Made by a program: the position numbers and the translations under genes
The notes under the pieces: model-generated
What the model was told of the DNA's origin: nothing
Seen by the model: only the letters and a program-made list of their open reading frames with translations
Databases searched by the model: none
Shown: positions 25,749-44,327 of the stretch, piece after piece
Layout: each line of letters starts with the position of its first letter
How positions within the stretch are numbered: position 1 is the first letter of the stretch
Assembly (NCBI RefSeq): GCF_900156545.1
Contig: NZ_FTNW01000007.1
Location: forward strand, 186,001-250,000
Source of the DNA: Aquipseudomonas alcaligenes
GTDB taxonomy: Bacteria > Pseudomonadota > Gammaproteobacteria > Pseudomonadales > Pseudomonadaceae
Length of the DNA: 64,000 nucleotides
Direction: 5' to 3'

Positions 25749-25848
25749 CCAGCGAGATGTGAAGCGCTGCCGATCCGCAGTGCGGCGCGATTGCCTGGCG
25801 CGCTGGCGCCGGCTAGCCTATGCGCTTCGCGCCTTTAAAGGATTAATC

Positions 25849-26634
25849 ATGCGCCCCCTGCTGTTGTCGGCATGTCTGACGTTCGCGTCGCTTGCCTGGG
25901 CAGACCCCTCCGCCAGTCTGGAAGGCCCCACGGCAGGCTGGCGCCACGACGGCCTGCTCGAGCGCGCGGCCGACGCCCGCGTGGCCTATCCGACGCCGCC
26001 CATCGATCGCGGCGGCCAGCGCGGCCGCAGCCTGATCGCCGGCAAGCTCGAAGGTACCCAGGGCCTGCGCCAGCCGCATGTGCTGGCAGTCAACGGCAAT
26101 CCCCTGCCTCTATACACCGACACCGAAGGTCGCTTCGTCCGCCCCTATAACTTCGGCGCCGGCTCCAACAGTGTCGAACTGCGCGCCGATGGCAAGCCGC
26201 TGCGCCGCGTGCAGTTCTATGAAGCCAACCACCTCAAGACCCCGGCGCGGGTGCGCATCGTCCTCGGTTGGGACGACCCCAAGGCCGAGCTCGACCTGCA
26301 TGTGATCACCCCCGACGGCCAGCACGCCTACTGGGCCGACCCGGTGATGAGCAACGGCGGCGGCCTCGACGTGGACAGCGTCGACGGTCCCGGCCCGGAG
26401 ATGTTCACCATGACCGCGCCGCTGCGTGGCACCTACCTGGTGTACGTCAACTACTGGGGCAACCTGGGCAGCCAGGGCTACAACTTCCAGGCCGGCAGCA
26501 ACCAGAACGAGGTGATCACCTCGCAGATCAGCCTGGTGTTCAACGAGAACACCGTCAATGAGCGGCGCGAGACCTTCGTCGTGCCGCTGCGCACCATCGG
26601 CGAATTGCTGCCGGTGAAGTCCTTCAACTACTGA
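25849..26634 (+). CDS. magA: MagA: YfaP-like periplasmic protein (DUF2135)
   Basis: 261 residues with signal peptide (MRPLLLSACLTFASLAWA). The C-terminal DUF2135 beta-sandwich starts VRIVLGWDDPKAELDLHVITPDG (residues about 135-157), with the DLDLH-like motif as ELDLH, then GPGPEMFTMTAPLRGTYLVYVNYWG. First gene of the six-gene operon that in P. aeruginosa is called magA-magF. The ATG at 25849 is preceded by AAAGGA at a good distance; the upstream frame extension lacks sense. Same architecture as MagF at the other end of the operon. Its role is unknown; it probably partners MagD in the periplasm. Confidence 0.85.
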   Translation: MRPLLLSACLTFASLAWADPSASLEGPTAGWRHDGLLERAADARVAYPTPPIDRGGQRGRSLIAGKLEGTQGLRQPHVLAVNGNPLPLYTDTEGRFVRPYNFGAGSNSVELRADGKPLRRVQFYEANHLKTPARVRIVLGWDDPKAELDLHVITPDGQHAYWADPVMSNGGGLDVDSVDGPGPEMFTMTAPLRGTYLVYVNYWGNLGSQGYNFQAGSNQNEVITSQISLVFNENTVNERRETFVVPLRTIGELLPVKSFNY

Positions 26635-26657: not shown

Positions 26658-28439
26658 ATGAGCGAGAACACCACTCCCGTCGAGCCCGTCGCCACGCCCA
26701 GCCCGCGCCGCTGGCGCCCGCTGCTGCTGGGCCTGGCCGTGGCCCTGCCGGTGACGGCCGCCGGCCTGTTCGCCTGGCTCGAGTACGAGCCGCAGGGCGA
26801 GCGCCAGCTGGTCGAGGCCAACTACCTGGGGCTCGACCTGGCGCGCCCGGATGTGCTCATTGAAAGCGCTTCGCTGAGCCGCCTGCCCAAGGACGTGCTC
26901 AAGGTGCCGCTGCTGCGCGACACCCTGACCGAGGACCTGGTGTTCTACTACGAGAACAACGCCGACCGCCTCGGCCTGACCGGCAGCCTGCGCCGCATCA
27001 TCTACGAGCATGACCTGCAGCTGCGCGACAACCTGCTCGACGAACTGCTCGACCAGCCGGCCGAAGTGGCCCTGTGGCGCGACGCCGGTGGCCGTCTGCG
27101 GCATTTCGTGGTGCTGATCCGGCGCGGTGGCCTGGCCAAGGTGCTGGAGCCGCTGGCCAAGGTGGCGCTGGACGATACCCAGCTGAGCCAGGCCGGCGAG
27201 TTCATGGTCGATGGCGCCGCGGTGCCTTTCTATCGCCTGCGCTACAACGGCGACCGCTCCATCCTGTTCGCCTCGCATGGCGACCAGCTGCTGCTGATGT
27301 CCAGTACCGACATGCTGTTCGGTCCGGCACCGCAACCGGAGGTCGATGAAGACGCCCCGGTGGCCGTGGATGAAAACAACCAACCGATTCCGATCGAGCC
27401 GCCACCGCCGGGCCTGGCCAAGGTCTCCGCGGAGGCCGCCGAAGCCCTGCTGGCCGGCCAGCATCCGTTCCCCGAGCGCTTCGGCTTGGGGGAGCGCGGC
27501 GCCCTGCAGCAGCGCGTGACCCTCGGCGCGGACTTCCTCGCCCTGGGCTACCGGCGCTTCCTGCCGGCCTTCGCCGGCCTGCGTTTCGAGCTTAACGACC
27601 AGGGCTGGGGCAGTTTCCTGGCCTTGGACGAGGTGGAAGGGCAGGGCGCCTTCGACTTCGCTCCGGTGTGGCGCGCCATGCCCATGGGCGCCAGCGCCTG
27701 CGTGGCGCTGCCGGTGGCACCGGGCCTGCCCGAGCGCCTGCTGACCAAGGTCGGCGCCGAGCCCAAGGCCGCTGCCGAGCTGGCCGCCCAGCTCAGTGGC
27801 AGTGCCGGCCTGTGCTGGTATCCGGACTCGCGTCTGCACTCGCCGCTGCTGGTCGGCACCCTCAAGGACACGCCCGGCGCGCAGACCGATGCCGAGCTGG
27901 GTGCGCTGTTCGACCGCCTGATCGGCGCCTGGGAACCCTACGCCGAGGGCGGCAGCTTCCCGGTCGAGGAGACTGCCCAGGGCGAGCTGCACAAGTGGCA
28001 GCGCCAGGTGGGTTCCAATTTCGGCCAGTACCCGGCAGACCTGGCCGAGCAGCCGGACGCCCTGGCCTCGCGCGCCTTCTTCCGCGTTGGCCTGGCGCGC
28101 CACGGCTCGACCCTGCTGTTCTCGCTGGACGACCGTCTGCTCGACAAGGCCGCCCAGACCCTCGACAAGCGTTTCCCGCCGCTGGCCGAAGTGCTGCCGG
28201 AGAACGCCCTGGTGCCAGCCTACCTGGCCCCGGACAGCCTGGCCGCATTGCTCGAGCGCGAGACCCTGGACAGCCTGCCGGAAGATATCGAGCCGGTGTT
28301 CCGCAACGCCGCCCAGGCTAACCTGCTGCCCAAGCTGCGTTCGCTGTCCGGTCACGGCAAGTACGCGCTGAGCCTGCCGGCCGACGCGGCCGCTGACGAA
28401 GCCTGGCAATGGCTGCCGTTAGAATGGCGCGCACTTTGA
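26658..28439 (+). CDS. magB: MagB: DUF2138 (YfaA-like) membrane-anchored protein
   Basis: 593 residues. A positively charged start (PSPRRWRP) followed by one hydrophobic segment (residues about 19-40, [20 protein letters not shown]) gives a signal anchor; the large remainder is periplasmic. The early [31 protein letters not shown] segment is typical of the DUF2138 family, known from E. coli YfaA. No catalytic motif is evident. It follows magA by 23 bases and its 3' end overlaps magC by 16 bases. I infer an inner-membrane scaffold for the Mag complex. Confidence 0.83.
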
Positions 28440-29065
28440 AACACCTGCTGCTCGGTGCCCTGCTGCTCGCCCTTGGCGCGCCGGCATGGGCCAATGCGCC
28501 CGCGCTGGACATGCAGCAGTCCCAGGTGTTCCGCGCCTGGTTCGTGCGCATCGCCCAGGAGCAGCTGCGCCAGGGCCCCAGCCCGCGCTGGCACCAGCAG
28601 GATTGCGCCGGCCTGGTGCGCTTCGCCGCCAACGAGGCACTCAAGGTTCACGACGCCAAGTGGCTGCACGCCAACGGCCTGAGCAACCGCTACCTGCCGC
28701 CGGAGCTGGAGCTGAGCGAGGCCCAGCGCGGTCTGGCGCAGCAGTGGCAGCAGGGCGGCGGCCAGCTCGGCCCCTACGTCAACGCGATCAAGCTGATCCA
28801 GTTCAACAGCACCCTCGTGGGCCGCGACCTCAACCAGGCGCGCCCCGGCGACCTGATCTTCTTCGATCAGGGCGACGACCAGCACCTGATGATCTGGATG
28901 GGCCGCAACATCGTCTACCACACCGGCACCACCACCCCGACCGACAACGGCATGCGCTCCGTGAGCCTGCAGCAACTGATGACATGGAAGGACACCCGAT
29001 GGATTCCCGACGCATCCAACCCCAACTTCATTGGCGTCTACCGGCTGCACTTTCTCAGCCGATGA
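28424..29065 (+). CDS. magC: MagC: DUF1175 (YfaT-like) protein with NlpC/P60-like active site
   Basis: 213 residues. Signal peptide [18 protein letters not shown] cut near PAWA. The core matches the NlpC/P60 papain-like pattern: catalytic Cys61 in [15 protein letters not shown] at the start of a helix, then [21 protein letters not shown], where His154 fits the catalytic His on the following strand, with VYHTG after it. This suggests a cell-wall endopeptidase or amidase fold. I chose the ATG at 28424, inside the magB 3' end, because it starts the signal peptide directly; the 28409 start is also possible. Its stop overlaps the magD ATG (ATGA). Activity is inferred from motifs only. Confidence 0.82.
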
Positions 29066-32000
29066 GCGCGCCCATGAACCTGCTGCGTCTCGCCGCCACG
29101 GCCCTGCTGGCCGCCGTGCTGCCGCTGGCCGCCCAGGCCGACGACAGCGTCGAGCCCAGCGGCTACTCGCCGGTGGCGGGGCAGTCGTTCTTCCTGCTGG
29201 CCGACAGCAGCTTCGCCAGCGACGAGGTGGCCAAGGTGCGCCTGGAGGCGCCGGGCCGCGACTACCGTCGTTACATGATGGAGCCCTACGGCGGCGTGGA
29301 CGTGCGTGTGTACCGCATCGAGCAGCCGCTGGAGTTCCTCAAGCGGCAGAAGAACCTGCACCGGGTGGTGGCCGAAGGGCAGTACAAGGGCGAGGGCCTG
29401 TCCAACACCCTGGCCTACCTGTGGGACAACTGGTACCGCAAGTCGCGTCGGGTGATGCAGCGGGCCTTCTCCTACGAGTCGCGGGTGCAGGTGACCGAGG
29501 AAGCGCCGGAGCTGAAGATGGGCGACGCGATCAAGGCGCCGACGCCCTTCGAGGCGCAGCCGCAGTATGCGCCGATGAAGGGCGTGCCGCTGGTGACGCA
29601 GTTCCGCTACCCGTTGTGGGACGCCAAGGCCATCCAGCCGCCCAAGGGCGTCGAGCTGGCCGGCTCGTCCAGCTCCTTCGTCACCGTCAACCCGGGCAAC
29701 GTCTATATCCCGCTGGGCAAGCTCAAGCCGGGTCTCTACCTGGTCGAGGCGCTGGTCGGCAAGTACCGCGCGACCACCGTGCTGTTCGTCTCCAACACCG
29801 TGGCGGTGAGCAAGATCGCCGGCCAGGAGTTGCTGGTGTGGACCGCGCGCAAGCATGAAGGCAGTGCCGTCGCTGGCGCCAAGGTGCTGTGGACCGATGG
29901 CCTGGGCGTGATGCGCAGCGGCAGTACCGACAGCCAGGGCCTGCTGCGCCTGCAGCACGCCAGCCCGGAACGCTCCTACCTGCTCGGTGAAGACGCCGAG
30001 GGCGGCGTGTTCGTCTCGGAAAACTTCTACTACGACAGCGAGATCTACGACACCAAGCTCTACGCCTTCACCGACCGCCCGCTGTACCGTCCGGGCGACT
30101 GGGTCGAGGTGAAGATCGTCGGCCGCGAGTTCACCAGCGCGCGCGACTCCAAGGCCGCCGCGGCCGCGCCGATCAAGCTGGCGGTGCTCGACGCCAACGG
30201 CACCACCCTGCAGACGCTGGACCTCAACCTGGATGCCAAGGCGGGCACCCAGGGCCGCTTCCAGCTGCCGGTCAATGCCGTGGCCGGTGGGTACGAGCTG
30301 CGCTTCCTGTACCGCGACCAGCTGTACAGCAGCGCCTTCCGCGTCGCCGACTACATCAAACCGCACTTCGAGATCGCCCTCGACCTGGCCAAGCCGGACT
30401 TCCGCACCGGTGAGCCGGTCAACGGCAACCTGGTGCTGCTCTACCCGGACGGCAAGCCGGTGCGCAATGCGCGTGTGCAGCTGAGCCTGCGTGCCCAGCA
30501 GCTGTCGATGATCGACAACGAACTGCAGTATCTCGGCCAGTTCCCGGTAGAGCTCAGCAGCAGCGAGCTGGTCACCGACGACAAGGGGCGCGTGGCCTTC
30601 GAGCTGCCAGCCGCCGACAAACCGAGTCGTTATCTGCTGACCCTGTTCGCCAGCGACGGTGCGGCCTACCGGGTCAAGACTAGCAAGGAGATCCTCATCG
30701 AGCGCGGCGCTGCCCGCTACCGCCTGGAGGCGCCGCAGCGCTTCAGTGCGGCCGGCGAAGCCGTGCAGTTCAGCTTCCGCAGCGAGCAGCCGACCGAACT
30801 CAAGCCGGCCAGCTACGAGTGGGTGCGTCTTGAGGATCAGAGCAAACACAGCGCCAGCCTGGGTGAGGACGACCAGGGTTTCAGCCTGAGCTTCGAGCAC
30901 CCCGGCACCTACAACATTACCCTCAAGGACGATCACGGCCTGATCCTCGGCGCCACTGGCCACTCGGTCAGCGGTAGTGGGCTCAAGGCGGTGGCCGGCA
31001 CCGTCGAGGTGGTGTTCGACCGCGACCAGTACCAGCCGGGCGACGAGGCCCTGGCGCTGATCACCTTCCCCGAGCCGGTGGGCGACGCGCTGCTGACCCT
31101 GGAGCGCGACAAGGTCGAGGCCACCGCGCTGCTGTCCAGCGGTGGCGACTGGCTCAAGCTGGAGAAGCTCAACGATACCCAGTACCGCGCGCGCATCCCG
31201 GTGGACGACCACTTCGCGCCCAACCTGACCTTCTCGGTGCTCTACACCAAGGGCGGCGACTACAGCTTCCAGAACGCCGGGATCAAGGTGGCCAAGGCGC
31301 AGATCGAGATTGCCGTGAGCACCGACAAGGAGCTGTACCAGCCGGGCGAGACGGTTACCGTCGACCTGGCCACTCAGTTCAAGGGCCAGCCAGCCGCCAG
31401 CCGCCTGACGGTGAGCGTGGTGGACGAGATGATCTACGCCCTGCAGCCGGAGATCGCCCCGGGCATCGACCAGTTCTTCTATCACCCGCGACGCAACAAC
31501 GTGCGCACCAGCGCCAGCCTGTCGTTCATCAGCTACGACGTGGCCCTGCCGGGCGACGCCACCGCACCGGGGCGGGCCAACCGCAGCGAGCGCGGGGTCA
31601 AGGTACTGGAGCGGCCGCGCCGCGAGGAAGTCGATACCGCTGCCTGGCAGCCGGATCTGGTCACCGATGCCGACGGCAAGGCGCGCTTCAGCTTCCGCAT
31701 GCCCGACTCGCTGACCCGTTGGCGCATCACCGTGCGCGCGGTCAACGACGGCGGCGAAGTCGGGCAGAAGAAGCAGTTCATCCGCTCCGAGAAACCGCTG
31801 TACCTGAAGTGGAGCGGGCCGACCCTGTTCCGCGACGGCGACAAACCGCAGCTGGGCCTGTTCGCCTTCAACCAGGGCGAGGAGGAGACCGAGGCCGAGC
31901 TGGTCACCCGCTTCGCCGGCCAGGAGCAGCGACAGACCGTGGAGCTGGTCCGTGGTGCCAACTACCTGGCCTTGCCGCCGACCGCACTGGCCGCCGGTGA

Positions 32001-33618
32001 GTTGACCGCCGAACTGGTGCAGGACGGCAAGCCGATCGATGCCCTGGCCGTTGGCCTGCGCGTGGCCGGCGAAGGCTGGCAACGCCTGCATGTGCAGAAC
32101 ATGGCGCTCAACCCGGGCAGCAACCCGCTGAGCCTGCCGGCGGACGCTGGCAATATCCGCCTGCGCCTCGGTGACAGCACTCAGGCACTGTTCCGCTCGG
32201 CCCTCGACGACCTGCTGGAATACCCCTACGGCTGCGTCGAGCAGACCGCCAGTCGCCTGCTGCCGCTGAGCCTGGCCTACCCGACGCTGGCCAAGGGCGA
32301 GGCGCGCATCGGCGAACGCCTGCGCCTGATCATGCAGAACAGCCGCCTGCGCCTGGTGCAGATGGCCGGCCCGGAAGCGACCTTCACCTGGTGGGGCGAG
32401 GGCGAGAATCCCGACGCCTTCCTCACCGCCTACGCCTACTACGCCGACTGGCATGCCAGCCGCGCCCTGGCCGTCGAACTGCCGCCGGAGCACTGGCAGC
32501 GCGTGCTGGACATCTACGCCCAGCAGGCGCCGAGCGTGCCGCTGCTGCAGCGTGCGCTGATCCTCGGCTTCGCCCGCGAGATGCAGTTGCCCACCGAGAC
32601 CCTGCTCAAGGGCCTGCTGGAAGACCTGGCCAACGCAGACGAAGGTCAGGACGTGGCGCTGGACGACAGCGGCGAGACCAGCCTGGTGATGGCCTACCCG
32701 GACTCGCGCCTGGGCCTGGATCTGGCCCGCGTACTGGCCGCCGACATGGCTGGCAGCAAGATCGGTCTGCCGCCACGCTTTGCCGTCGGCCTGGCCGCCG
32801 CCCGCGAGCGCGTGGCGGCCAGCACCCAGCCGTTCGCCGAGGCAGTGCGCCTGTCCCGTGGCCCGGTCGATCCGCTGCAGATCAACGCGCTGTTGCAGCG
32901 CCTGACCCCGGCCCAGGCTACTCTGGAGCGCGCCCTGGCGCTGACCTGGCTGCAGCGCCGCCTGGGCGATGCGCCGATCGTCGCCGTGCCGCAGCCGGGT
33001 GCCGGCTGGCAGGCCCGCGAGGGCGCCAGCGGCGAGACGCTGTGGCACTGGCAGGGCAGCCAGCCGCCAAGCGCCCTGGAACTGCCAGCCGAGCTGGGCA
33101 GCCCGCTGGTCGCCGCGCTCAGCTACGACAGCGCCGCCACGCCGCCGAGCGGGCCGCTGGAAGTGAAGGTCAGCCGCCGCCTGCTGCGCCTGGTGCCGGG
33201 CGAGGCGGCGTTCAGCTTCAGCGCCGAGGAAGTGGGAGACGGCCCGATCTCCGGCGACCAGTTGTATCTGGACGAGATCACCCTGGAGAGCGAGGCCGAG
33301 ACGCCGCGCCGCTATGGCCTGCTGGAAGTGCCGCTGCCGCCGGGCGCGGACGTCGAGCGCACCACCTGGGGCCTGCAGGTCAGTGGCCTGGATTCGGAAG
33401 AGGCGGCGCCGCTGGAGAAGGCCCGTCACGAGCCGGGCCAGCTGCTCTACGCGGTGCCGGTGGACAGCCTGCAGGGCAAGCTGGTGCTGCGTCACCTGGT
33501 GCGTTTCTCGCAGAAGGGCGAGTTCCACCTGCCGCCGGCGCGTTACTCGCGCATGTATGACCCGCAGGCTCAGGCCTTCGAGCAGAAGCCGGCACTGGCC
33601 GAGCTGAAGGTCGAGTAA
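29062..33618 (+). CDS. magD: MagD: bacterial alpha-2-macroglobulin
   Basis: 1518 residues, normal for YfaS/MagD. A cleavable signal peptide (after LPLAAQA) without lipobox gives a soluble periplasmic protein. A series of macroglobulin domains leads to a bait-like exposed region around residues 805-860, rich in Arg, Ser and Pro, and then the conserved [18 protein letters not shown] and PDSLTRWRI block. The thioester motif CVEQ is C1058-Q1061 in [13 protein letters not shown], at the start of the helical thioester domain. Alpha-2-macroglobulins trap proteases that cleave the bait; the thioester then links to the attacker. P. aeruginosa MagD is associated with the periplasm and regulated through RetS/Gac/Rsm. 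The start ATG overlaps the magC stop. Confidence 0.93.
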
Positions 33619-33620
33619 GG

Positions 33621-35270
33621 ATGCGCGCGCTCGCCTGGCTGGCGCTGCTGCCGCCGCTACTGGTCTCCGCCGGGCCGGCGCCGCTGCAGCTGGCCTGGCA
33701 CACGCCGCAGGGCGCCGAGCTGCTGCGCCTGGATGGGCAGCAGCTGTTGTCCCGCGAGCCGTTGCCGGCGAACCTCGAGGCGCCGCTGGGCAGCCTGTGG
33801 AAGCTGTTCGTCTACGCCTACCAGGTCGACCGCGGCCTGCCTGATCAGGTCTATGCCTGCACCGGCCAGGATCGCGAGGAGGTGTACTGCTGCAAGGCCG
33901 GCGAGCGCATCGACCGTGACCAGGCGCTGGTGCGCTCCTGCGGCCTGTACTTCGCGCCGCAGCGTCTCGGCTTGCCGGCTGATGAGTGGCGCGACTACTG
34001 GCAGGCACGCCGCGCGCCGGATTGGTTGCTCGATCTCGACGGCCTACAGCCACAGCGCCGGGTGGCGATCGGCGAGCTGCTCGACAGCCTGACCACGCTG
34101 CCGGCCCAGGCCGAGGCGCGCCGCGTGCTGCTCGACGTGCCGGTGAGCGCTGCCGACGGCGCGCTGCTCGGGCCGCTCGGCAGCCGCCTGCGGGTGAAGA
34201 CCTGGAGCTGGCTGGCCGATGGCGATACCCAGGCACGCCAGGGCGGTTTCGCTGGCTGGCTGGTCGACGGCACGCCGCTCTGGGCTGGCGGCTCCGGCAC
34301 CAGTCAGGGTGTGCTCAAGCGCCATGCCGAAGCACTCGGCAAGGTGCTGCCGGCACCCTGGCCGGCGGAGCCGGGTGGCTGCGTCGAGGTGGCGCTGTTC
34401 GATCGCTATCCGCTGCGCGGCCTCAGTCGCGCGGATGGCGGAGCGGTGAGCCAGTCCGGCGCGCTGCGCGGCCATTACCGGGTGGCGTTCGCCAACGGCA
34501 ACACGCTGGAGATCGAGAGCCAGGGCGAGCTGTTCCTGCTGGCTGGCGAGCAGCCTCGGCTGGTGGCCCGCCTGAGCCGCGAGGAATACGTGGCGCGGGT
34601 ACTGGATCGCGAGGCAACGGCGCAGCCGGCCGAGGCGGCCAAGGCCCTTGCTGTGAGCATCCGCAGTTACCTGCTACAGAACGGCGAGCGCCGTAGCGAG
34701 TGCCTGGCGATCCGCGACAGCAGCGCTCAGCAGCGTGTGGCGCCGCGCCCGGCCAGCGCCGCCGCGCGCGAGATAGCCGCCTGGACCGCCGACCTGGTGC
34801 TGGCCGGCAGCCCTGTCACCTATCACGCCGACCAGCCCGGCGTGGATCGCCTGGCCTGGAGCCAGGCTGTCGAGCAAGCGCAGGCCGGCCTGCGCTACGA
34901 CGCCATTCTCGCTCGCGCCTTTCCGCGTGCGAGCCTGAGCCGTTGGGACCGGCCGGTGGCCGCCTGCCAGCCGCTACCCGTCGCCGAGGACTGGCTGCAC
35001 AAGCAGCGCCGCAGCTGGCGTGAGCTGCTGGATCGCGAGCCGGGCTATGCCGAGACCGCCGAATTCGCCGTGTGTCGCCTGTACAGCGGCAACCCGCATG
35101 TCGACCGCGAGCGCCGGCGCATCTACGTGCGTGGCCTGCAGTCGTTGCAGGACCGCCTCGACCTGGCTCACGAATACCTGCACCTGGCCTTCGATGCCCA
35201 TCCGAATGGCCAGGATGAAACTTATATCGAGGGCCTCGCCCGCCATCTGCTGCTGGAAGCTCAGCCATGA
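33621..35270 (+). CDS. magE: MagE: DUF2300 (YfaQ-like) protein with PBP-like, SpoIID-like and HExxH segments
   Basis: 549 residues with a short signal peptide (MRALAWLALLPPLLVSAG). Three segments can be read. (1) Residues about 25-240 resemble a penicillin-binding transpeptidase: S58-L-W-K61 in LGSLWKLFVYAY as SxxK, RSCGLYF at 105-111 as a SxN-like motif with Gly for Asn, and K193-T-W195 in VKTWSW as KTG-like with Trp for Gly, followed by a GFAGWLVDGTPLWAGG strand pair. (2) Residues about 285-470 resemble SpoIID: LSREEYVARVLDREATAQPAEAAKALAVSIRSY, with E331 at the catalytic Glu position. (3) Residues 517-521 are HEYLH, a zinc-peptidase-like motif. Two bases separate it from magD; it overlaps magF by 4. 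Activity of each segment is unproven. Confidence 0.83.
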   Translation: MRALAWLALLPPLLVSAGPAPLQLAWHTPQGAELLRLDGQQLLSREPLPANLEAPLGSLWKLFVYAYQVDRGLPDQVYACTGQDREEVYCCKAGERIDRDQALVRSCGLYFAPQRLGLPADEWRDYWQARRAPDWLLDLDGLQPQRRVAIGELLDSLTTLPAQAEARRVLLDVPVSAADGALLGPLGSRLRVKTWSWLADGDTQARQGGFAGWLVDGTPLWAGGSGTSQGVLKRHAEALGKVLPAPWPAEPGGCVEVALFDRYPLRGLSRADGGAVSQSGALRGHYRVAFANGNTLEIESQGELFLLAGEQPRLVARLSREEYVARVLDREATAQPAEAAKALAVSIRSYLLQNGERRSECLAIRDSSAQQRVAPRPASAAAREIAAWTADLVLAGSPVTYHADQPGVDRLAWSQAVEQAQAGLRYDAILARAFPRASLSRWDRPVAACQPLPVAEDWLHKQRRSWRELLDREPGYAETAEFAVCRLYSGNPHVDRERRRIYVRGLQSLQDRLDLAHEYLHLAFDAHPNGQDETYIEGLARHLLLEAQP

Positions 35271-36055
35271 ATCATCGTTTCTACTCGGTCGCCTTCCTGG
35301 CCTGCGCCATGCCACTCGGCGCGTTTGCCGACATCACGCTGGACACTCCGCGCGCCGGCTGGCGCACCGGCTCGGACGAGGGCGCGCACTTCATGCAGGC
35401 CGTCAGTTACCCGGCTTCGGCGGTCAACAGCGCGCCGGATCAGGGCGACAGCGCGCGCATCCGCGGGCAGATCAGCGCCACCGACAAGGCGCCCAGTGGT
35501 GCGCCGGCGCGCCTGGTGGTGAATGGCCTGAGCATGCCGCTCAAGGTGCAGGAGGGCGGTGGTTTCGACCGGCCCTTCGTGTTCCCGGCCGGCAGCAACA
35601 ACGTCGAGGTGCGCAGCCCGGATGGCCAGCAGGTACGCCGCGTGCAGTTCTACAACAACGGCAGCGGCGAGACGCCGGCCAAGCTACGCGTGGTGCTGTC
35701 CTGGGACAGCGACAACACCGACCTCGACCTGCACCTGGTGACGCCCGACGGCGGCCATGTCTGGTATGGCGAGCGCGCGCTGGCCAACGGCGCGGCGCTG
35801 GACGTGGACGTGACCGGCGGCTTCGGTCCGGAGATGATCGCCTCGCCGACCCCGCTCAAGGGTGAGTACCTGGTCTACGTCAATTACTACGGCGGCGGGC
35901 AGAGCTCCGAGGGCAACATGGTGCAGGACCTGACCACGGCCCAGGTGACGCTGATCAGCGGCGAGGGCAGCTCTAACGAGAAGCAGGAGTCCTTCCTCAT
36001 CCCCATGCGCGCACCGGGCGAGCTGACCCTGGTAAAGCGTTTCAGTTATCCCTGA
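35267..36055 (+). CDS. magF: MagF: YfaP-like periplasmic protein (DUF2135)
   Basis: 262 residues. Signal peptide MNHRFYSVAFLACAMPLG cut near AFA. The C-terminal DUF2135 domain has LRVVLSWDSDNTDLDLHLVTPDG and GGFGPEMIASPTPLKGEYLVYVNYYG, and the preceding half has VNSAPDQGDSARIRGQI. It is a paralogue of MagA: both share the VQFY strand before the domain and end with a similar (F/L)xxPxR tail then a K(S/R)F motif. Last gene of the operon; the ATG overlaps the magE stop by 4 bases. A dispersed inverted repeat follows 5 bases after the stop. Function unknown. Confidence 0.87.
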   Translation: MNHRFYSVAFLACAMPLGAFADITLDTPRAGWRTGSDEGAHFMQAVSYPASAVNSAPDQGDSARIRGQISATDKAPSGAPARLVVNGLSMPLKVQEGGGFDRPFVFPAGSNNVEVRSPDGQQVRRVQFYNNGSGETPAKLRVVLSWDSDNTDLDLHLVTPDGGHVWYGERALANGAALDVDVTGGFGPEMIASPTPLKGEYLVYVNYYGGGQSSEGNMVQDLTTAQVTLISGEGSSNEKQESFLIPMRAPGELTLVKRFSYP

Positions 36056-37698: not shown

Positions 37699-38151
37699 TC
37701 AGTCGTCCAGGTTTTCGACGCGTACCGTTGCTACGCCGGCGCGTAGCATGTCCAACTGGCGTGCAGCCGCCTGCGACAGGTCGATCAGGCGGCCACGACC
37801 GTGCGGGCCGCGGTCGGTGATACGCACCACCACTGAACGCTCGTTGCTCAGGTTGGTGACTCTTACCTGGGTGCCGAATGGCAGTTCGCGGTGCGCGGCG
37901 GTGAGCGCATTGTTGTTCAGGCGCTCGCCGCTGGCGGTGCGCCGGCCATGGTGGCGCGAAGCATAGTAGGAGGCCTTGCCCTGGGCTTGGTAGCTGGGCT
38001 CGGGGCGGGGCTTGGCGGGTGGTGTTGGTGCCTTGGCCACTGGTGCAGGCTGTGGCGCCGGGGTAGGCGTCTCGGGCTGGCGCTCAAGTGGCTGGCTGGC
38101 GCAGCCGGCCAGCAACAGGAGAGGCAGGATGAAAGTCGCGATCTTGTGCAT
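37699..38151 (-). CDS. RlpA-like lipoprotein (septal ring lytic transglycosylase family)
   Basis: 150 residues. The lipobox LLAGC (Cys16) marks a lipoprotein. A Pro-rich linker (residues about 24-52) is followed by the double-psi beta-barrel: [42 protein letters not shown] and [20 protein letters not shown], with the conserved Asp-Arg-Gly-Pro motif. RlpA proteins cleave naked glycan strands at the septum or elsewhere. There is no SPOR domain, so this is a short member, distinct from full-length RlpA. It lies 47 bases downstream of gatB on the same strand; a hairpin terminator fills most of the gap. Confidence 0.87.
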
Positions 38152-41708: not shown

Positions 41709-42758
<1,050 letters not shown>

Positions 42759-42778
42759 TCCCCCCAGGGGTGACCCGA

Positions 42779-42811
42779 AGCCGGAAGCTGGTCCTTCCGG
42801 CTTTGTGTTTT
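42779..42811 (+). terminator. Intrinsic terminator or attenuator between mreB and mreC
   Basis: 8-bp stem AGCCGGAA/TTCCGGCT with an 8-base loop, followed by TTGTGTTTT. It starts 20 bases after the mreB stop and its T-run overlaps the only canonical start codon (GTG 42805) of the mreC frame. Confidence 0.75.
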
Positions 42812-43818
42812 CTAGCCGTCAGTCGAGGGTAGCCATCATCAAACCGTTATTCGCCAAGGGCCCGTCGCTGGGCGTACGACTGCTGGTGCTGGTCGTGCTG
42901 TCGGCCGTGCTGATGGTGGTGGATGCGCGCTTCGAGGTGCTGCAGCCGCTGCGCTCGCAGCTCGGCCTGATCGTCGAACCGACCTACCGCGTGGCTCGCC
43001 TGCCGATGACGCTGTGGGAGGAGGCGACCCAGCAGATCGCCAGCCGCAGCGAGCTGGTGGCGGAGAACGAGAAACTCAAGGCCGAAGCGCTGCTGATGCA
43101 GGGCCGCCTGCAGAAGCTGGCCACCCTCACCGAGCAGAATGTGCGCCTGCGCGAGCTGCTCAATTCCGCCGCGCTGGTGGAGGAAAAGGTGCTGGTCACC
43201 GAGCTGATCGGTGTCGACCCCAACCCCTTCACTCACCGCATCCTGATCGACAAGGGCGAGAAGGATGGTGTGTTCCTTGGTCAGCCGGTGCTCGATGCCC
43301 GCGGCCTGATGGGCCAGGTGGTCGAGGTCATGCCCTACACCGCACGGGTGTTGCTGCTCACCGATACCAACCACAGCATTCCTGTGCAGGACAATCGCAA
43401 CGGTCTGCGTGCCATTGCCGTCGGTACTGGCAATCCGGAGCGCCTGGAGCTGCGCCATGTGGCCGATACCGCAGATATCAAGGAAGGCGATCTGCTGGTC
43501 AGCTCCGGCATGGGCCAGCGCTTCCCGGCCGGTTACCCGGTGGCCACGGTCAGTGAGGTGATTCACGACTCCGGCCAGCCGTTCGCCATCGTCCGGGCCG
43601 TGCCCACCGCGGCGCTCAATCGCAGCCGTTACATGCTGCTGGTGTTTACCGACGGCCGCACGGCTGAAGAGCGCGCCACCGAGGCCGCCGAGGCCCAGGA
43701 AGCTGCCGACCGCAAAGCCGAAGCTGCCGCCGGGCAGCCTCCGGGGGCGTCGCCCGCAGCCGTGCCAGCGCCAGCAACACCGGCCGCTCCGGCGGCTCCA
43801 GCCGCAGGGGGGCAGTGA
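42805..43818 (+). CDS. mreC: Rod-shape-determining protein MreC
   Basis: About 327-337 residues. A short cytoplasmic start (KPLFAKGPSLGVR) precedes one membrane span (LLVLVVLSAVLMVV), then a coiled-coil (ENEKLKAEALLMQGRLQKLATLTEQN) and the periplasmic beta-domains with DPNPFTHRILIDKGEKDGVF and GRVVEV-like strands. The C-terminus is an Ala/Pro-rich tail (residues about 300-337) that is probably disordered. Start choice is unclear: GTG 42805 lies in the terminator T-run and has no ribosome-binding site. GAGGG at 42825-42829 would place an ATC start at 42835 or 42838 at ideal spacing, giving MIKPLF or MKPLF as in other Pseudomonas MreC proteins. Confidence 0.93.
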   Translation: MFSSRQSRVAIIKPLFAKGPSLGVRLLVLVVLSAVLMVVDARFEVLQPLRSQLGLIVEPTYRVARLPMTLWEEATQQIASRSELVAENEKLKAEALLMQGRLQKLATLTEQNVRLRELLNSAALVEEKVLVTELIGVDPNPFTHRILIDKGEKDGVFLGQPVLDARGLMGQVVEVMPYTARVLLLTDTNHSIPVQDNRNGLRAIAVGTGNPERLELRHVADTADIKEGDLLVSSGMGQRFPAGYPVATVSEVIHDSGQPFAIVRAVPTAALNRSRYMLLVFTDGRTAEERATEAAEAQEAADRKAEAAAGQPPGASPAAVPAPATPAAPAAPAAGGQ

Positions 43819-44327
43819 TGGTCCAGGTCAAATCGCGCAATTCCTGGGTACTCTGGTCCACTCTGCTGCTGGCGCTGCTGTTCAGCGTGGCGCCTATTCC
43901 GTTCAGCGAGCATCCGCAGCTGCGTTTCCTTGAGCTGGGTCGGCCGCTGTGGCTGGCCCTGTTCCTGTCCTACTGGGTGCTGGTCCTGCCGCATCGGGTG
44001 GGCATGCTCACTGCCTGGTGCCTGGGGCTGGTGTTGGACGTGCTCAATGGTACGTTGTTGGGGCAGAACGCCCTGATCCTCACCCTGATCGTCTTCCTGG
44101 TGCTGTCGTTACAGCGGCGCCTGCAGATGTTCCCCACCTGGCAGCAGAGCCTGGTACTGCTGGTGGTGTTCGGTATCGCCCAGCTGGTGCAGCTGTGGCT
44201 CAACGCGCTCACCGGCAACCGTCCTCCGACCCTGGCGTTCGTCCTGCCGGCGCTGATCAGCGCCTTGCTCTGGCCCTGGGTGTTCGCCATTCTGCGGGGG
44301 CTGCAACGGCGCTTCGGAGTTTACTGA
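43818..44327 (+). CDS. mreD: Rod-shape-determining protein MreD
   Basis: 169 residues with about five membrane spans; SWVLWSTLLLALLFSVAPIPF at the start and LFLSYWVLVLPHRVGMLTAWCLGLVLDVLNGTLLGQNAL are typical MreD segments. Acts with MreBC and RodA in elongation. ATG 43818 overlaps the mreC stop (TGATG); a GTG at 43815 is also in frame. A run of G residues just before serves as the ribosome-binding site. Confidence 0.94.
   Translation: MVQVKSRNSWVLWSTLLLALLFSVAPIPFSEHPQLRFLELGRPLWLALFLSYWVLVLPHRVGMLTAWCLGLVLDVLNGTLLGQNALILTLIVFLVLSLQRRLQMFPTWQQSLVLLVVFGIAQLVQLWLNALTGNRPPTLAFVLPALISALLWPWVFAILRGLQRRFGVY

Follow-up and report, generated by a model that had tools for sequence, protein, structure and literature searches.

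Mag-operon macroglobulins are encoded together with companion proteins whose roles have been stated to be unclear (PMC5764988). One of these companions is MagE, a DUF2300 protein, and the magE gene in a stretch of 64,000 nucleotides of Aquipseudomonas alcaligenes DNA (the window) raises the question of what such a protein does beside the alpha-2-macroglobulin MagD. A literature search on DUF2300 returned no papers under that name. Deletion of magE was reported to result in larger MagD forms, with processing seemingly prevented, and the authors proposed in 2018 that MagE acts as a chaperone or in the processing of the MagD signal peptide; MagB, not MagE, was termed essential for the 165-to-100 kDa cut of MagD (PMC5764988). 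According to the same source, earlier work suggested a cytoplasmic MagE, and no stable MagD–MagE complex was found. The E. coli orthologue YfaQ is already in print as a protein with a Sec signal peptide, an N-terminal transpeptidase-like part and a C-terminal SpoIID-like part, and its deletion led to wider cells and to a profile linked to those of mepS, mepK and nlpI mutants (PMC12282094). The first-pass annotation of the window gave the same two-part reading, a PBP-type domain fused to a SpoIID-like domain next to an alpha-2-macroglobulin. Both folds and the adjacent magD stand, but the protein has three modules: the C-terminal ~100 residues, overlooked in that reading, are zincin-like. The DUF2300 label conceals three modules, one PBP-like, one SpoIID and one zinc-peptidase-like.

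The magE reading frame runs from an ATG start to a TGA stop, with 549 codons for residues (Table 1). The magD stop codon (TAA, 33616-33618) lies just upstream, and the ATG of the DUF2135 gene magF overlaps the magE stop. The order magA, magB, magC, magD, magE, DUF2135 gene is that of the mag operon. MagE was found in 59 of the 149 genomes of the genus. Among 80 Pseudomonas magE loci, tblastn detected magD and magF in every one and magB and magC in 77, contig ends cutting some of the loci. A PADLOC search returned no match among five Mag proteins. YfaQ, 53% identical to MagE, has the same operon place, all three modules and their motifs; it differs in being in print as bipartite, and in its macroglobulin gene: the annotation of E. 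coli K-12 MG1655 has yfaS as a pseudogene and the adjoining yfaQ as intact.

Table 1. Coordinates of the mag operon, of the MagE modules and DUF2300 matches, and of genes from other loci (named by locus) that are discussed in the text
Feature	Position	Strand	Description	Evidence
magA	25849..26634	+	DUF2135; start codon assumed	Pfam (scan covered 25843-26631)
magB	26658..28439	+	DUF2138	Pfam
magC	28409..29065	+	DUF1175; NlpC/P60-type Cys-His-His pattern (DCAGL, QHLMIW, YHTG)	Pfam
magD	29062..33618	+	alpha-2-macroglobulin; CVEQ motif	Pfam MG2, A2M, A2M_BRD, bMG10
magE	33621..35270	+	549 aa, DUF2300, YfaQ orthologue; predicted secreted, three modules	reading frame, Pfam
MagE hydrophobic N-terminus, residues 1-18	33621..33674	+	likely Sec signal peptide	read from sequence; pLDDT <50
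MagE module 1, residues ~18-247	33672..34361	+	serine beta-lactamase/PBP-type fold (predicted)	Foldseek, VIA-align, profile-profile match
MagE module 2, residues ~251-445	34371..34955	+	SpoIID-like	PF08486, PDB profile, VIA-align
MagE module 3, residues ~446-549	34956..35267	+	zincin/minigluzincin-like	VIA-align, motif counts, standalone homologues
DUF2300 match, MagE residues 82-202	33864..34226			Pfam PF10062
DUF2300 match, MagE residues 409-529	34845..35207			Pfam PF10062
magF	35267..36055	+	DUF2135	Pfam
MagF-like gene, L108	13030..14097		LprI-like match	Pfam LprI
MagF-like gene, L109	4299..5363		LprI-like match	Pfam LprI
MagF-like gene, L111	15393..16481		LprI-like match	Pfam LprI
MagF-like gene, L015	365..1435		LprI-like match	Pfam LprI
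yfaS, L117	4799..9403		macroglobulin gene	

Pfam places two DUF2300 matches on MagE, and RefSeq names YfaQ 'tandem DUF2300'. Comparison of the two segments ruled out a tandem repeat: the profile of each scored at most 5.5 bits on the sequences of the other, hhalign gave a probability of 2%, BLASTP gave an E value of 7.3, and the segments fall in different predicted folds. Judged from these comparisons, the tandem name is a misleading annotation artefact, and the PF10062 model appears to mix two non-homologous segments.

The motifs that the first-pass annotation had singled out are all present. They comprise G57-S58-L-W-K61, R105-S106-C-G-L-Y-F and V192-K193-T194-W195 (VKTWSW) in module 1, and E331 in module 2. 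An alignment of 81 Pseudomonas sequences, that of the window among them (65-95% identity to MagE), shows no variation at S58, K61, S106, K193, T194 or E331, and neither do seven full-length sequences, YfaQ among them, that go down to 43% identity. In a regular-expression count, one of the 80 sequences was missed by the SCGLYF pattern and one by the pattern for the context of E331; in the alignment, S106, C107, G108 and E331 do not vary.

A full-length AF2 model of MagE was built from the 81 sequences (mean pLDDT 79, pTM 0.49), and used for a structure search against the PDB. The top Foldseek matches were class A and class D beta-lactamases and PBP transpeptidase domains (probability 1.00). VIA-align aligned 200 residues to the class D beta-lactamase 5e2f (Z 14.7, rmsd 3.6; model residues 18-247), and gave Z 14.2 for module 1 against the BlaR1 sensor domain. 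A PBP-type fold is expected to carry the serine of SxxK at the start of a helix and KTG on a strand. In the model, S58 begins helix 57-70, and K193-T194 lies on strand 190-194, followed by strands 207-214 and 219-225 and by helix 228-242. A PDB sequence search with module 1 yielded two chance matches only (E 1 or worse), and one with the single MagE sequence yielded one chance match (E 2.3). Comparison of the MagE profile with the five PBPs of the same genome in hhalign gave E 3.6e-4 (probability 37%, 75 columns, KTG outside the aligned span), pairing S58xxK61 with the PBP SxxK and S106-C-G with the SxN region, such that S106 corresponds to the Ser of SxN. None of 100 column shuffles reached this E value (best 0.025), and the reversed profile gave 0.68. 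The PBP-type domain proposed earlier is thus borne out by the structure comparisons and by the match to the genome's own PBPs: in the model, residues ~18-247 have a serine beta-lactamase/PBP fold.

The second and third motifs of this fold are altered. The third position of SxN is Gly (SxG) in all sequences checked, and KTG is replaced by KTW in 80/80 Pseudomonas loci and by KTW (three) or KTF (one) in the four other full-length proteins. The caution that these degenerate motifs may indicate a binding role was reasonable, given KTW or KTF in all 84 further sequences. The change from KTG to KTW argues against acyl-enzyme chemistry, and together with SxG it suggests a binding rather than a catalytic site. 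The most likely role of module 1 is stem-peptide binding or sensing.

Module 2 contains the motif L318-SREEYVARVLDRE331. Pfam SpoIID (PF08486) matches residues 313-371 with 26.4 bits (cut-off 23; YfaQ scores 27.0 bits), and MagE is the only SpoIID match in this genome; NCBIfam SpoIID_LytB gave 14 bits, far under its cut-off of 83.3. Searched against the PDB, the MagE profile retrieved SpoIID of B. anthracis and C. difficile at E 0.014 to 0.1. In B. subtilis SpoIID the catalytic Glu is E88. In the profile alignment to 5txu, which is weak (E 0.1), E331 pairs with chain position 101; in C. difficile SpoIID, E101 is the catalytic Glu and the E101A substitution abolishes activity (PMC6221140). A second model covering residues 251-549 (pLDDT 86, pTM 0.65) was compared with VIA-align, which gave for module 2 a Z of 12.6 to SleC, 12.3 to SpoIID 5i1t (138 residues) and 11.8 to SpoIID 4rwr (129 residues). 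Foldseek alone gave SleC at E 1.4e-3 and SpoIID at E 0.1-0.2, and nothing in residues 251-549 at E 0.001 or better.

The Pfam match, the 5txu alignment and the Z scores of ~12 uphold the earlier assignment of a SpoIID-like domain with E331 in the place of the catalytic Glu; by the model, this domain spans residues ~251-445. The module has the fold and the catalytic Glu in common with SpoIID lytic transglycosylases and SleC; it differs from them in sitting between two other modules, in a Pseudomonas protein, and from C. difficile SpoIID in lacking, as judged by eye, a Cys/His cluster resembling its zinc site. Module 2 most probably cuts glycan strands or, at the least, binds them.

Module 3 is absent from the first-pass annotation and from the main text of the YfaQ study, which, supplements apart, contains no word starting 'metallo', 'zinc' or 'peptidase' (PMC12282094). 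It carries H517-E518-Y-L-H521-(x11)-E533-xxx-E537 (HExxH-x11-ExxxE) and the invariant cysteines C449 and C485. In the AF2 model, HExxH lies in helix 509-523, and E533 and E537 open the next long helix (533-546); either Glu is a candidate metal ligand. The best VIA-align match of module 3 was abylysin 4jiu, with a modest Z of 6.5 over 80 residues. All 19 listed VIA-align rows with Z >= 4.0 on this module (residues 199-299 of the second model) are zinc-peptidase folds; the structural matches include abylysin, selecase, Wss1, jannalysin, IrrE/PprI, BepA, the VgrG2b effector domain, CapP and a putative Zn peptidase. With Foldseek alone, abylysin and selecase appeared at E 0.05-0.1.

Sequence searches with module 3 gave less. 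Pfam returned no peptidase match, only DUF2300 falling under E 0.05 (9/9 members), with Peptidase_M78 at a weak E of 0.11 in one of the nine; a PDB sequence search gave MJ1213 at E 0.15 amid mostly chance (angiogenin) matches. A metzincin reading (HExxHxxFxxH, with H527 as third ligand) was rejected, YfaQ having Tyr at that position. The motif HExxH-x11-ExxxE is intact in 80/80 Pseudomonas loci, in 4/4 distant full-length proteins and in 7/7 standalone proteins, described below. Module 3 resembles the minigluzincins abylysin and jannalysin/selecase in its ~100-residue zincin fold with HExxH (Z 4.5-6.5). It differs from them in being probably secreted, in its two invariant cysteines, in the 11 or 15 residues from HExxH to the candidate Glu ligands, and in having no confident sequence relative of known structure in the PDB sequence search. 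On the strength of the model and the motif, module 3 is most likely a small HExxH zincin module, that is, a zinc metallopeptidase. The arrangement of the three modules relative to one another is left loose, given the pTM values of the two models.

To follow module 3 beyond Pseudomonas, 398 genomes of the phylum were searched: nine had two DUF2300 matches (full-length MagE), six had one above the cut-off, and one had a chance match below it. A search of 274 genomes of the class, partly overlapping with the phylum set, added one single-match genome and one chance match. Two genomes (G009 and G457), whose DUF2300 matches lie under the cut-off and were read as chance, are left out of the counts. 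Each of the seven single-match genomes encodes a short protein homologous to module 3, whose N-terminus is hydrophobic wherever it was read. The standalone gene lies directly 3' of magD in 5/5 operons with the upstream side present and 5' of the DUF2135 gene in 7/7, and full-length MagE occupies the same operon place in three distant loci. Thus, short proteins predicted to be secreted stand in magE's place in other Proteobacteria.

Modules 1 and 2 were not found by phmmer (E up to 1e-3) in the 17-19 kb around each of six of the seven standalone operons, and a whole-genome search with a model that also spans part of module 1 gave a single match per standalone-type genome. The conservation of HExxH-x11-ExxxE in all sequences counted, together with module 3 standing alone in other mag operons, points to the peptidase-like module as the separable core of MagE. 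Operons of this kind also suggest that some mag systems can do without sensing by modules 1 and 2. Where those two modules are missing the peptidase-like one persists, and magE has been connected with MagD processing by published genetics (PMC5764988).

Full-length MagE, aligned together with YfaQ, has eight invariant cysteines, distributed in even numbers over the modules (four, two and two); most homologues have one or two additional ones. Together with the hydrophobic N-terminus, this pattern suits the periplasm better than the cytoplasm. We hypothesize, with about even confidence, that MagE is a periplasmic three-module protein, placed at peptidoglycan by modules 1 and 2, whose zinc peptidase module 3 acts on the mag system. 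MagE would be exported via Sec. Module 2 would dock to, and probably cleave, glycan, while module 1 would bind stem peptides, the two bringing the protein to peptidoglycan, perhaps to sites where glycan is damaged or denuded. Module 3 would process a mag-system protein, most plausibly the macroglobulin MagD.

If this is correct, mag-operon macroglobulins would be linked to peptidoglycan, as are the type I macroglobulins, which adjoin PBP1c (PMC5764988). In both cases a PBP-fold peptidoglycan protein is encoded with a bacterial macroglobulin; MagE differs from PBP1c in lacking a glycosyltransferase domain and an intact KTG. A link to peptidoglycan agrees with work from 2025 in which MagD was reported to confer protection against some peptidoglycan-degrading effectors, namely VgrG3 and, to a limited degree, Tae1; in that work MagD is described as giving no protection against TseH or against B. 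thailandensis attack (PMC12663445).

A different reading, possible though rather unlikely in our estimate, is that MagE is mainly a two-sided peptidoglycan enzyme, acting on the peptide and the glycan side, with the C-terminal module as an accessory. Both folds are supported, E331 and SxxK are invariant, and MagC is NlpC/P60-like. The envelope phenotype of the yfaQ deletion (PMC12282094), seen although the K-12 MG1655 annotation marks yfaS as a pseudogene, is also consistent with it; it suggests that MagE is probably not a MagD-processing factor alone, the deletion strain possibly being of another background. Against a two-sided enzyme stand KTW/KTF and SxG in every sequence checked, and the retention of module 3 where modules 1 and 2 were not found within the 17-19 kb around six standalone-type operons.

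We consider it unlikely that MagE is instead a chaperone or export factor for MagD, or an aid to removal of its signal peptide, with the enzyme folds serving as scaffolds. The higher-mass MagD in the magE deletion is in keeping with such a role, which is the one its authors proposed (PMC5764988). The active-site residues of modules 2 and 3, however, stay strictly the same in homologues as distant as about 45% identity, a constraint that a scaffold would not impose, and the signal-peptide-like N-terminus and the eight invariant cysteines make action in the cytosol improbable. That all three modules are degenerate relics merely binding peptidoglycan and partners is very doubtful: the motifs of module 1 are degenerate and no activity is on record, but HExxH-x11-ExxxE is kept without exception in the 80, four and seven sequences counted above, and E331 is invariant.

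Our preferred reading, a periplasmic protein with a peptidase module, has a partial parallel in BlaR1/MecR1, which likewise carry, within a single polypeptide, a domain resembling class D beta-lactamases and a gluzincin-type HExxH protease domain (PMC6925264). MagE differs in having no membrane-embedded protease domain, in its opposite domain order, in the added SpoIID module and in its degenerate KTG, and the parallel, an analogy, is suggestive only. As a long shot, MagE could be a periplasmic counterpart of BlaR1/MecR1, in which the PBP-type and SpoIID modules together detect broken or denuded peptidoglycan and activate the built-in zinc peptidase, which then clips MagD, a complement-like macroglobulin that in the window has kept its thioester motif. 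If so, MagE would act on MagD much as a convertase arms a complement protein, and this bacterial analogue would serve to defend against effectors that attack the cell wall.

The thioester motif itself varies among mag operons. The mag-operon macroglobulin has been termed type II since P. aeruginosa MagD is without the CXEQ thioester motif (PMC5764988). MagD of the window reads YPYGCVEQT at residues 1054-1062, with the thioester-type Cys at residue 1058; it combines the mag operon context and the bait-region domain of the type II class with a CXEQ motif, which that class is described as lacking. By tblastn, CVEQ occurs in 11/80 Pseudomonas loci and GVEQ in the remaining 69, and outside these, the eight loci with magD have C[AV]EQ in seven cases and GVEQ in one. 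Absence of the thioester motif is therefore no property of the mag operon, and its loss within most Pseudomonas would be the simpler reading of this distribution.

Two of the other Mag proteins also gave matches beyond their DUF names. MagC matches Pfam NLPC_P60 with 24.7 bits (cut-off 23); among its homologues that of L109 passes (27.1), whereas YfaT (20.8) and that of L108 (21.2) fall under the cut-off. A Cys and two His are at the expected NlpC/P60 places in MagC and in 9/9 further homologues read, so that MagC looks like a second mag protein resembling a peptidoglycan peptidase. Among six standalone-type operons scanned, four have a MagF-like DUF2135 protein whose N-terminal part matches LprI (lysozyme inhibitor; 22.2 to 30.8 bits); one of the remaining two scored 15.0 (cut-off 22) and the other had no match, the operon of L116 lying outside the scan.

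Downstream of the operon, 2.4 kb from magE, a gene on the minus strand (37699-38151) encodes a DPBB/RlpA-like protein (Pfam DPBB_1, 'lytic transglycolase'). It was considered as a mag partner and set aside: of the 77 Pseudomonas loci that have more than 4 kb of sequence 3' of magE, only 16 have a homologue nearby, indicating no systematic link. Further 3' of the mag operon, MreB is encoded within 41721-44327, beside what we take to be mreC and mreD, past genes that we read as gatB and gatA.
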